A stretch of 64,000 nucleotides of DNA, taken from NCBI RefSeq assembly GCF_014199305.1, contig NZ_JACIJK010000004.1:124001-188000 (forward strand), written 5' to 3'. This document shows, one piece after another, positions 25,749 through 37,148 of the stretch; within the stretch, counting starts at the first letter, position 1, and the number at the start of each line of letters is the position of its first letter. This DNA comes from Sphingomonas aerophila (GTDB taxonomy: Bacteria > Pseudomonadota > Alphaproteobacteria > Sphingomonadales > Sphingomonadaceae). Made by a program: the position numbers and the translations under genes. The notes under the pieces were generated by a model. It ran no database searches. It had not been told where the DNA came from and saw only the letters and a program-made list of their open reading frames with translations.

Positions 25749-27119
25749 ATGGCCCTCGACATTCTCGTCGTCGACGACGAGATCGACATTCGCGAATTGG
25801 TAGCCGGCGTCCTGGAGGACGAGGGCTATGAGACACGCTCTGCGGCGAACAGCGATGCGGCCCTGGACGCGATCGCCAACCGTAGGCCCTCGCTCGTACT
25901 GCTGGACGTGTGGCTGCAAGGGTCACGTCTCGATGGGCTTGAACTGCTTGACGAGATCAAGCGGCGCGATCCTTCCATCCCCGTGTTGGTGATCTCCGGC
26001 CACGGCAACCTCGACACGGCGGTGGCGGCCATCCGCCGCGGCGCTGCCGATTTCATTGAAAAGCCGTTCGAGGCGGAGCGGCTGCTATTGATGGTAGCGC
26101 GTGCCACGGAAACCGAACGGCTCCGCCGTGAAGTGGCATCGCTGCGCGCCTCCGTGGGGCGCGATACTGACCTGACCGGCAGCTCCACCGCGATCAACAG
26201 CGTCCGCGCCACGTTGAAACGCGTCGCAGGCACCGGCAGCCGTGTCCTGATCATGGGCGGAGCAGGGGTCGGCAAGGAAGTCGCTGCGCGCCTGCTCCAT
26301 GCCTGGAGCCAGCGTGCCGACTCACCGTTCGTGATCGTCAGCGCGGCGCGGATGACGCCGGAGCGTGTCGACGAGGAGCTGTTCGGGGTGGAGGAGGGGG
26401 GTGACCTCGTCCGCACCGGCCTTTTGGAACAGGCGCACGGGGGCACGCTTTTCCTGGACGAAATTGCCGACATGCCCGTTGCTACCCAGGCGCGGATCCT
26501 GCGCGTGTTGACGGATCAAAGCTTTACCCGCGTGGGCGGCACGCGCGTGGTCAAGGTGGACGTCCGCGTCGTCTCCGCCACGGCCCGTGACCTGACAGAA
26601 CTGATTTCCGAGGGCCGCTTCCGGGAAGACCTGTACTACCGGCTGAACGTCGTGCCGGTGCTGCTGCCTTCGTTGGCCGAGCGGCGCGAAGATATACCGC
26701 CGCTCGTGCAGCACTACATGGCCCACTACGCGTCTGAACGGCGCGTCCCAACCCCGGAGATTGCGACCGACGCCATGGTTGCGCTGCAATCCTACGACTG
26801 GCCGGGCAACGTCCGACAGTTGCGCAATGTGGTGGAGCGAACCATCATCCTCGCGCCAGGGGACAGGATTGGCCGCATCGACCTGGACCTTTTGCCGGCA
26901 GAGGTGCTGGGCGATGGCGGCGACAGCGCGGCGAGCAGCGCAATCATGGGTGCCCCGCTGCGCGAAGCCCGCGAGTCGTTCGAGCGCGAATATCTGCGCG
27001 TCCAGATCCGCCGTTTTTCCGGCAATATCTCGAGAACTGCGAGCTTCATCGGGATGGAACGCTCCGCTCTCCATCGCAAGTTGAAGCTGTTGGGAATAAC
27101 CGAACCGCGCGACGAGTGA
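25749..27119 (+). CDS. ntrX: Response regulator NtrX without the sigma54 GAFTGA loop
   Basis: 456 residues: receiver with phospho-acceptor D53 (VLLDVWLQG), AAA+ domain, C-terminal helix-turn-helix (ISRTASFIGMERSALHRKLK). The Walker A is altered (GGAGVGKE instead of GESGTGKE). The segment where GAFTGA should follow ELFG reads VEEGGDLVRTG, so contact with sigma54 is not expected, although Walker B TLFLDEIADM is kept. It probably acts as a sigma70-type repressor or activator, as described for other alphaproteobacterial NtrX. It starts four bases after ntrY. Confidence 0.95.
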   Translation: MALDILVVDDEIDIRELVAGVLEDEGYETRSAANSDAALDAIANRRPSLVLLDVWLQGSRLDGLELLDEIKRRDPSIPVLVISGHGNLDTAVAAIRRGAADFIEKPFEAERLLLMVARATETERLRREVASLRASVGRDTDLTGSSTAINSVRATLKRVAGTGSRVLIMGGAGVGKEVAARLLHAWSQRADSPFVIVSAARMTPERVDEELFGVEEGGDLVRTGLLEQAHGGTLFLDEIADMPVATQARILRVLTDQSFTRVGGTRVVKVDVRVVSATARDLTELISEGRFREDLYYRLNVVPVLLPSLAERREDIPPLVQHYMAHYASERRVPTPEIATDAMVALQSYDWPGNVRQLRNVVERTIILAPGDRIGRIDLDLLPAEVLGDGGDSAASSAIMGAPLREARESFEREYLRVQIRRFSGNISRTASFIGMERSALHRKLKLLGITEPRDE

Positions 27120-27259
27120 GTGATAGCCCAACATACGGCTATGGACGGACAGCTGCCGCGACCATAGATTATTGGAGCTTTCATCCGGAGGCATCCGACG
27201 TCGGACAACGACGCTCTTGCGGGGCATGCTCCCGCCAACAATGAAAGGGATGACACCCC

Positions 27260-27751
27260 ATGGCCGATAAGCAAGGTTCGCTCCAGGACCTCTTCCTCAA
27301 CGCGCTCCGCCGTTCCAAGACCCCGGTCACGATGTTCCTGGTGAAAGGCGTGAAGCTGCAGGGCATCGTGACCTGGTTCGACAACTTCTCCGTGCTGCTG
27401 CGGCGGGACGGGCAATCTCAGCTGATCTACAAGCACGCCATCTCGACCATCATGCCGACCGGGCAAATGGACCTCGCCGCGATCGTCGACGCGGCCCAGG
27501 ATGCGCCTCGTAAGCAGCCGCTGTTGCAGGACATCTTCTTGAATGCCGTCCGCCGGTCTGGTGACAGCGTCACCATGTTTCTTGTGAATGGGGTGATGCT
27601 CCAGGGAGCCATCGCCGGCTTTGATCTGTTCTGCATGCTCCTGCAGCGCGAAGGGTTGGTGCAGTTGGTGTACAAGCACGCGGTTTCGACCATCCAGCCA
27701 GCCCACGCCCTGAACTTGGCCGAGGAAACGGCCGGATCGGATGATGATTGA
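27260..27751 (+). CDS. hfq: RNA chaperone Hfq, two Sm domains in tandem
   Basis: 163 residues made of two complete Hfq cores: 7-66 and 88-147, joined by a linker of about 21 residues, with a short acidic tail. Each copy has the LQDxFLNAxRR start, the Sm1 strand region and YKHA (Y57-K58-H59 and Y138-K139-H140). The copies differ at the distal face (VKLQG against VMLQG) and at the loop FDNF against FDLF. A normal Hfq has 70-110 residues and forms a hexamer; here three chains could form a six-lobed ring. Shine-Dalgarno GAAAGGGA precedes the ATG. It follows ntrX and precedes hflX, the usual order. Confidence 0.96.
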
Positions 27752-29046
27752 GCACGAATTCCGGATTTGAGCGCGACAAGGGTGAGTTCACCCGGGGTGC
27801 ACGTGCCCTGATAGTGTTGCCCGACCAGGGTGGATCGAGCCGCGATGCTGACGCACGGCTGGACGAGACCGCTGGTCTGGCTGCCGCGATCGGCATCGTC
27901 GTCGCGGAGAAAGTCGCTCTGCGCGTCCGCCAGCCGCGCCCAGCGACCCTGATCGGCAGCGGGCAGGTTGAACAGCTCGCAGCAACCGCGCGCATGGAAG
28001 AAGCGGACCTCGTCGTCTTCGACGCGAGCCTGACGCCCGTACAGCAGCGCAACCTGGAAACCGCGCTCGAAGCCAAGGTGATCGATCGAACCGGCCTGAT
28101 ACTCGAGATTTTCGGGGAACGGGCAGCCACAGCCGAGGGGCGACTGCAGGTCGAACTTGCCCACCTCGACTATCAGGCTGGCCGGCTCGTACGCAGCTGG
28201 ACCCACCTTGAGCGGCAACGGGGCGGCTTCGGCTTCCTGGGCGGCCCTGGCGAAACGCAGATCGAGGCCGACCGCCGATTGATCCGCGACCGCATGGCTC
28301 GGCTTCGTCGCGAGCTCGAGGGCGTCAGCCGTACGCGCGGGCTTCATCGGGAAAGACGACAGCGCGCGCCATGGCCCGTGATCGCGCTGGTTGGCTATAC
28401 CAACGCTGGAAAGTCGACCTTATTCAATCGGCTGACCGGCGCTGACGTCATGGCGGAGAACCTTCTGTTCGCGACGCTAGACCCGACATTGCGTCAGATT
28501 GCGCTTCCGGGTCTCGACAAGGCGATCTTGTCGGACACGGTGGGGTTCGTGTCGGAACTGCCGACCCAATTGGTGGCCGCGTTCAAGGCGACGCTGGAAG
28601 AGGTCGTCTCAGCCGATCTTCTCATCCACGTCCGCGACGTCGCGCATCCGGACACCGAAGCTCAACGTATCGATGTCGAGGGCGTGCTCGCCGATATCGG
28701 CGTATCCGAACAGACACCGGTGATCGAGGCCTGGAACAAGCTCGACTTGCTGGACGACGAAGCCCGCGCCGCTCGCCTTGCCGAGGCTGCTCGCCGGGAG
28801 GTCGTCGTCGCCATTTCGGCGCTGACCGGGGAGGGGGTCGACAATCTTCGCACCGCCGTGGCCGATCGCCTGACCGAGGGACATCGGCGTTACACGATCA
28901 CGCTTGCTGCGGGCGACGGGGCCGGCGCGGCATGGCTCCACGCGCATGGTGAGGTGTTGGCAAGCGAAGTCCAAGGCGAACAGGCGTCATATGACGTGCG
29001 GATGTCGCCGGCCGATTTCGAGCGGTTCGAGCAGAGGCACGGTTAA
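27748..29046 (+). CDS. hflX: Ribosome-splitting GTPase HflX
   Basis: 432-residue GTPase that acts on stalled or stress-arrested ribosomes. It has an N-terminal HflX domain, a glycine-rich linker ([14 protein letters not shown]), and the G domain with G1 [13 protein letters not shown]3 DTVGF and G4 NKLD. Start is TTG at 27748, overlapping the hfq stop as TTGA. No ATG is available before conserved sequence, so a rare TTG start coupled to hfq is the best choice. Confidence 0.94.
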
Positions 29047-37058: not shown

Positions 37059-37148
37059 GGAGAGATGGCCGAGTGGTTTAAGGCAGCGGTCTTGAAAACC
37101 GCCGTGGGTTCACGCCCACCGTGGGTTCGAATCCCACTCTCTCCGCCA
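37059..37148 (+). tRNA. tRNA-Ser (anticodon UGA)
   Basis: The sequence folds as a class II tRNA with a long variable arm. The acceptor stem GGAGAGA pairs with TCTCTCC, and the D-arm starts GCCGAGTGG. The anticodon TGA is at 37093-37095 in loop CTTGAAA, the variable arm is GTGGGTTCACGCCCAC, and the T-arm loop is GTTCGAATC. CCA is encoded at the 3' end. It reads UCA and probably UCG codons. Confidence 0.97.

Follow-up and report, generated by a model that had tools for sequence, protein, structure and literature searches.

The locus analyzed here raises the question of what kind of RNA-binding ring can be built from an Hfq protein that carries two Sm domains in a single chain, and whether the two domains have remained equivalent. 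In the window, that is, the whole stretch of 64,000 nucleotides that was analyzed, the hfq gene occupies 27260..27751 (+) as one open frame of 163 amino acids plus the stop codon. The genome search revealed it as the sole hfq match in the 4.0 Mb genome, and the focal gene encodes the one Hfq on the chromosome of this Sphingomonas-type bacterium.

Domain organization and locus of the focal Hfq

A first-pass annotation of the DNA had described two complete Hfq cores in this frame (residues 7-66 and 88-147), both with the YKHA motif and joined by a linker of about 21 residues. The Pfam Hfq profile (PF17209) indeed matched the protein in two stretches, with a total of 188.6 bits against a cut-off of 27, and NCBIfam TIGR02383 also matched in two stretches (176.9 bits versus 61.7); membership in Hfq by profile score and in the double-Sm Hfq of Sphingomonadales, with two Hfq domains in a single frame, is thereby established. 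The HMM boundaries placed domain 1 at residues 8-67 (27281..27460, +), a linker of exactly 21 residues at 68-88 (27461..27523, +) and domain 2 at residues 89-148 (27524..27703, +), followed by an acidic C-terminal tail of 15 residues, 149-163 (27704..27748, +). Since the curated model NF010691.0 (RNA chaperone Hfq, 176 positions) covers residues 1-161 of the focal Hfq and scores 289.2 bits, above its cut-off of 270, the double form is an already recognized family; this model (PRK14091.1) evidently describes the double form, and no difference from the focal Hfq was apparent.

In the AlphaFold2 model, both domains adopted the Sm fold, with a helix and five strands each (H8-19 in domain 1 and H89-100 in domain 2). 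The proximal residues of E. coli Hfq (Q8, F42, Y55, K56 and H57) were found in both copies, as Q9, F43, Y57, K58 and H59 in copy 1 and as Q90, F124, Y138, K139 and H140 in copy 2, and YKHA is present in both, as the first-pass annotation had stated. According to the site table, the rim, distal and proximal residues of domain 1 are complete; in domain 2 the proximal Y-K-H is retained, the rim is eroded and the distal Lys is absent.

The gene lies downstream of ntrX, which encodes a response regulator (25749..27119, +; NCBIfam NF051870.1 NtrX, 740.9 bits versus a cut-off of 600), and upstream of hflX (27748..29046, +; NCBIfam TIGR03156.1 HflX, 456.7 bits versus 216.75). Also upstream on the same strand are ntrC (TIGR01818, 599.6 bits versus 558.6) and two sensor kinases, which are of the NtrB and NtrY type by position, with models below cut-off; mazG lies beyond hflX on the opposite strand. 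In the stretches fetched for 112 double loci, ntrX was on the strand of hfq in 109 and hflX in 110. We also observed that the TTG codon listed as the start of hflX shares bases with the stop codon of hfq (27748-27751), as in translationally coupled genes. No promoter was found in a scan of 26900-27900, beside which three terminator-like sites were listed, and an Rfam search of the 64-kb window returned one tRNA gene (37059-37145) only, at the gathering score.

Distribution of double-domain Hfq

Zymomonas mobilis ZMO0347 and six other Hfq proteins of Sphingomonadales have two Sm-like domains per chain, the same arrangement as in the focal Hfq, and a three-chain ring was raised for them as a question in 2010 (excerpts of PMC2877685). 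Because both have been in print since then, neither the arrangement nor the trimer idea is new. The available excerpts of that paper contain no residue-by-residue comparison of the copies and no date for the duplication; the portions of the Zymomonas hfq papers that were searched for ring terms contained nothing on domains, and no residue-level or structural study of double Hfq was found in open-licence PubMed Central. What is added here is that one duplication best explains the sampled doubles and that, in their sequences, the asymmetry between copies is fixed.

Among 397 genomes of the family Sphingomonadaceae searched for Hfq, 388 matched; 335 of these contained clear full-length doubles (E 1.1e-57 or better), as judged from the listed E-values, and 53 contained weak matches (E 8.4e-37 or worse). 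Thirty of the weak matches were read, and they comprised 23 single-domain proteins, 5 strongly diverged doubles and 2 that were cut short. The first-pass annotation had named a sequencing duplication artefact as one outcome that would overturn its reading. We rejected an assembly, sequencing or recent duplication artefact as scarcely credible: copy 1 and copy 2 of the focal Hfq share only 38 of 60 residues and 67% of bases, which argues against a recent duplication in the assembly, and the double form recurs in those 335 of 388 matching genomes.

Outside the family, no double Hfq was seen among the 65 matching genomes of 66 from other families of the order, where a match range was given for every one of the 65 matches. 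None was seen among 240 matching of 284 genomes in a sample of the class, or among 315 matching of 376 in a sample of the phylum outside the family, as judged from the ranges among the matches listed and from E-values for the rest. A few outgroup matches pass query residue 100 through stop codons, and the two that were read (L034 and L036) were single.

Of the 80 named loci, 69 encoded double-length Hfq. The best named matches were mostly from Sphingomonas, with 81-87% identity among the best eleven. The Novosphingobium loci in the named set carry double-length Hfq, and a 2002 paper is said to have dealt with a double-domain Hfq from that genus, for which the first-pass annotation had also mentioned one. 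Double-length Hfq was likewise found at the Sphingopyxis loci of the named set, which come from members of the genus other than S. granuli. According to excerpts of PMC6563040, thnR of Sphingopyxis granuli TFA is repressed by the sRNA SuhB, and this repression depends on Hfq.

Origin of the double proteins

In a FastTree phylogeny built from the flanking NtrX and HflX of 169 loci, 107 double loci fell into one clade with a support of 0.85, which is below the usual 0.95. The 22 single-domain family members in this tree formed a grade outside the double clade. The nearest single-domain locus (L061) joined the double clade with a support of 1.0. Among the genomes read, which take in 30 of the 53 weak family matches, none within the double clade had lost its second domain. 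The single-domain Hfq of the early family branches, as at L061, has ntrX before and hflX after it, as at the focal locus; its core is nearly the same as copy 1, and it carries N29 and K32 in one domain together with a full rim, without a second copy. At one other single-domain relative (L068, 1501-2166), there is no hflX in the fetched stretch, and the hfq frame extends to 221 residues and into the region that codes for MazG on the opposite strand.

The domains themselves gave a tree in which copy 2 formed one side of a branch with an SH-aLRT of 99, and of 97 when five fast lineages, which had been left out of the first domain tree, were restored in the second. The support for copy 1 was 77 only, and two changes were needed once the fast lineages were included; because 61 columns are few, the domain tree is a rough guide. 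There was no sign of exchange between the copies, as copy 2 remained one branch in the domain trees with or without the fast lineages. Taken with the weak support for copy 1, these trees indicate common descent from one event: a single tandem duplication within the gene is the probable and best explanation for all sampled double proteins, and it would have occurred inside hfq on the stem of a large Sphingomonadaceae subclade. Two loci were excluded from the domain tables, L059 because it is truncated close to the end of a contig and L085 because its frame stops prematurely; L068 was excluded from the tail table and, with hflX absent, from the flank-gene tree. Five double loci (112 less 107) and outgroup L171, each with one flank gene missing, were likewise left out of the flank-gene tree.

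Residue differences between the two copies

We compared 112 copy-1 domains, 112 copy-2 domains, 23 single-domain proteins of the family and 41 of other Alphaproteobacteria; the 112 double proteins had been collected by similarity, and no residue patterns were used. In addition to the published rim positions, R19 and K47 were taken by us to be rim residues. R19D is named as a rim mutant in excerpts of PMC7987339, which in part supports the choice of R19. The published lateral rim residues are N13, R16, R17, S38 and F39 (excerpts of PMC5379935), and the distal A and R sites were mapped in PMC6422490, of which excerpts were available.

The most strictly fixed difference between the copies was found at E. 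coli position 28, where all 112 copy-1 domains carry Lys and all 112 copy-2 domains carry Asn (K29, 27344..27346, +, and N110 in the focal Hfq). The position is basic in 0/64 singles, so that the Lys is a gain in copy 1 and N110 is the ancestral Asn. The first-pass annotation had held that copies evolving without any site-specific difference would speak against it, and such a difference, one that it does not mention, is present at K29/N110. It had also paired K32 of copy 1 with M113 of copy 2 and proposed an alignment to see whether this change in the distal face is conserved. The pairing was correct: K32 (27353..27355, +) is the equivalent of the distal-face E. coli K31, and Met stands in its place in copy 2 (N110 to M113 codons, 27587..27598, +). 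Moreover, the change is conserved, as this position is basic in 112/112 copy-1 domains and 64/64 singles but in 0/112 copy-2 domains, which carry Met in 109 cases, Ala in 2 and Leu in 1. When residues 29, 32, 110 and 113 were counted together, every double chain (112/112) had exactly two basic residues, and every single chain (64/64) had exactly one at 29 and 32; six domains therefore carry six basic residues either way. Judged from the aligned sequences, the total of basic residues at positions 28 and 31 per six domains is unchanged and has been shifted to copy 1.

The distal A-R-N base contacts were scored at E. coli Y25, L26, I30, L32, Q33, Q52 and T61, with conservative swaps allowed, and all seven were kept in 112/112 copy-1 and 107/112 copy-2 domains. 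The suggestion that the double protein changes which A-rich mRNAs are bound is accordingly not supported in that form. The proximal Q, F, Y, K and H were kept in 110/112 copy-1 and 111/112 copy-2 domains. The first-pass annotation had placed a second distal difference where FDNF becomes FDLF. The difference is real (positions 42 and 123), with Asn in 102/112 copy-1 and Leu in 97/112 copy-2 domains at the position of E. coli Gln41, but it is not distal, because the equivalent Aquifex Leu39 lines the proximal site (excerpts of PMC5379935).

The arginine rim, which had been described as retained in both copies, was found to be retained only in part in copy 2: R98 and R99 remain, while K20 is replaced by G101, R48 by Q129 and W39 by G120. 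Over the whole set, the mean number of basic rim residues at four positions was 3.96 in copy 1, 1.51 in copy 2 and 4.00 in singles. By position, the copy-2 rim was basic in 85/112 domains at R16, 55/112 at R17, 13/112 at R19 and 16/112 at K47, and 8/112 keep all four bases; with the Arg16 equivalent so often basic, the copy-2 rim is weakened but not gone everywhere. N13 was kept in 112/112 copy-1 domains, 25/112 copy-2 domains and 64/64 singles, and Trp at the S38 position (W39/G120 in the focal Hfq) in 107/112, 0/112 and 64/64, respectively. The mean net core charge was +4.75 in copy 1, -1.12 in copy 2, and +4.04 and +3.88 in the two groups of singles.

Additionally, the beta-5 position (E. 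coli V63; M65/Q146 in the focal Hfq) was Met in 104/112 copy-1 domains and Gln in 110/112 copy-2 domains. Q146 (codon 27695-27697) is as fixed as the changes at the RNA sites, and the change from Met to Gln may belong to the domain interface.

In a second set, consisting of the focal Hfq and 55 named or MAG loci, N110, M113, Q146, K29 and K32 were invariant; the named loci had been found via patterns including FLVKGVKL or QL[VI]YKHAI, so that K29 and K32 are partly built in, while N110, M113 and Q146 are not. Alignment A2 comprised the focal Hfq and 55 double-length named loci, with 13 unused for size and L215 dropped for a stop codon, and alignment A3 comprised the focal Hfq and 45 named loci. 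As far as residue conservation can tell, the asymmetry between the copies is fixed across all sampled double proteins: the distal charge and the rim have diverged, and the base-reading distal pockets and the proximal site are kept in both copies.

Selection on the domains, linker and tail

Within the focal genus (11 sequences, 55 pairs), pN was 0.024 for copy 1, 0.098 for copy 2 and 0.41 for the linker, and the corresponding pS values were 0.50, 0.61 and 0.57. These values indicate that purifying selection acts on both domains, with less stringency on copy 2, and that the linker sequence is nearly free. They bear on a reading in which three good rims were enough after the duplication and copy 2 lost its charge by neutral drift, without a new role. 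The faster change of copy 2 (pN 0.098 vs 0.024) and its variable rim positions are what such drift would produce; however, copy 2 is still under purifying selection, the copy-specific states K29 (112/112), N110 (112/112), M113 (109/112) and Q146 (110/112) are fixed, and K29 in copy 1 is a gain rather than a loss. On balance, we consider neutral drift rather unlikely.

The linker is 18-23 residues long in 109/112 double proteins, and the order of the domains within the chain is the same in 112/112. If the chain were cut in the cell, two single-domain Hfq proteins would mix in ordinary hexamers, an outcome that the first-pass annotation had named as contrary to its reading. This is very improbable: the linker length is held though its sequence is nearly free, so that no conserved cleavage site is apparent, and the covalent order is kept throughout.

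In E. coli Hfq, the acidic tip of the C-terminus acts on the rim. RNA binding by this protein is under the control of its disordered C-terminus (excerpts of PMC12262471, a preprint). A tail net charge of -2 or lower was found in 108/112 doubles, 22/22 family singles and 40/41 other singles, and a linker net charge of -2 or lower in only 19/112 double proteins. A ring of three chains would have three full rims and as many acidic tails.

One sub-clade, made up of five genomes from a single genus (L060, L062, L080, L087 and L088; 2.1-2.3 Mb), has a double Hfq that is fast-evolving in both domains. Their tails have 4-6 residues with little or no acidic charge, the Y-K-H of copy 2 has become F-K-H, and in L062 and L088 His59 of copy 1 is replaced by Gln. 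Nothing unusual was apparent in five further members of the genus. Since the acidic tail was lost in four or five of the five diverged doubles and two lost His59 of copy 1, the pattern is not indispensable.

Predicted structure and possible ring assembly

Two AlphaFold2 runs were performed, both on a single chain. The first, on the focal Hfq with 56 double proteins, gave a mean pLDDT of 89.7 and a pTM of 0.85, and the second, with a Novosphingobium protein leading, gave a mean pLDDT of 86.5 and a pTM of 0.81, with the linker at low confidence. If two domains of this size (about 60 residues each) were placed independently, we would expect a pTM of roughly one half; as both values exceed this, the predictor fixes the mutual placement of the domains. 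The models thus suggest a fixed packing of the two domains within the chain, and the packing surface is presumably the ring-neighbour contact.

Upon superposition, the copy 1 model matched Caulobacter Hfq with 0.9 Å over 71 residues, and the copy 2 model matched Aquifex Hfq with 1.5 Å over 69 residues. The Caulobacter crescentus protein (PDB 6gwk) is the best structural and sequence relative, with E 1.8e-30 to copy 1, and unlike the focal Hfq it has one Sm domain per chain. All of the best 50 matches listed per fold search were Hfq chains, and no solved chain with two Sm domains was among them.

Two assemblies can be set against these models. In one, a hexamer of copy 1 domains and a hexamer of copy 2 domains would be tied together by the linkers in a double ring of six chains, so that a ring that anneals RNA would be coupled to one of weak charge. 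We estimate that 18-23 linker residues suffice to span the distance to a second ring, and copy 2 differs as a set (mean core charge of -1.12 vs +4.75). In the other, three chains would close one ring of six domains, with copy 1 and copy 2 in alternation. The confident placement of both domains of a chain by AlphaFold2 better suits neighbours in one ring, and on these models we regard the tethered double ring as distinctly unlikely and the three-chain ring with alternating copies as likely. The first-pass annotation had proposed such a ring with unequal distal sites; the unequal domains, the pTM values of 0.85 and 0.81 and the conserved K-to-M change agree with it, but the A-rich pockets are kept, so that the inequality does not extend to them.

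Discussion

The explanation that we favor, with moderate confidence, is a double Hfq derived from one duplication that likely forms a three-chain alternating ring, in which copy 1 is complete and copy 2 is depleted in charge. Copy 1 is a complete Hfq site, with the full rim and the distal charge. In copy 2, as conservation shows, the pocket that reads bases on the distal face is kept along with the fold and the proximal site for uridine, but the basic residue of the distal face is absent, as are most of the other basic residues of the rim. A ring of this kind would hold six proximal and six distal base pockets, together with three full annealing rims and three weakened ones, and the basic residues of positions 28 and 31 would sit in pairs on every other domain, three in all. 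Such a ring would remain able to bind sRNA 3' ends and A-rich mRNA, and electrostatic capture and strand annealing would concentrate at three positions. The copies have diverged in the distal lysine, the net core charge and the rim, and this suggests a change in how RNA is captured and annealed, not a new base specificity; as its Arg16 equivalent is often kept, copy 2 may have a rim that still functions to a degree.

That the diverged residues matter is indicated by impaired E. coli mutants at K31, Y25 and R16. According to excerpts of PMC7987339, K31A leaves 26% and Y25D leaves 23% of Hfq mRNA-associated in cells. In excerpts of the preprint PMC12262471, R16A lowered significant chimeras about 100-fold and K31A almost 4-fold, and regulation was hit less than the chimera counts in both mutants. 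The more specific proposal of a three-fold ring, with the basic residues moved to alternate domains, every second rim weakened and one tail per full rim, is held only tentatively, at somewhat less than even weight; it was weighted down because the Arg16 equivalent is basic in 85/112 copy-2 domains.

The double Hfq can also be compared with other Sm proteins and with single-domain Hfq. Eukaryotic Sm/LSm rings are heteromeric, with seven non-identical positions that arose by duplication and are occupied by separate chains. Both they and the double Hfq have non-identical Sm positions in principle, but the domains of the double Hfq are joined in a fixed order. In a homohexameric Hfq, any mutation hits all six sites at once. 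With joined, unequal copies, the number of full rims, distal lysines and acidic tails that a ring requires becomes accessible to study, as does the need for them to adjoin one another, with K29/N110, K32/M113, W39/G120 and M65/Q146 as the residues for swapping. The copies also advise caution, in that site models from E. coli Hfq may not carry over to sphingomonads, in which Hfq-dependent regulation by sRNAs is a subject of research. If true, the three-fold ring would show, by an example from nature, that Hfq can do without six identical positions and that its rims and tails function in matched pairs, and much of the Sphingomonadaceae would run its RNA regulation on a three-fold rather than a six-fold Hfq.
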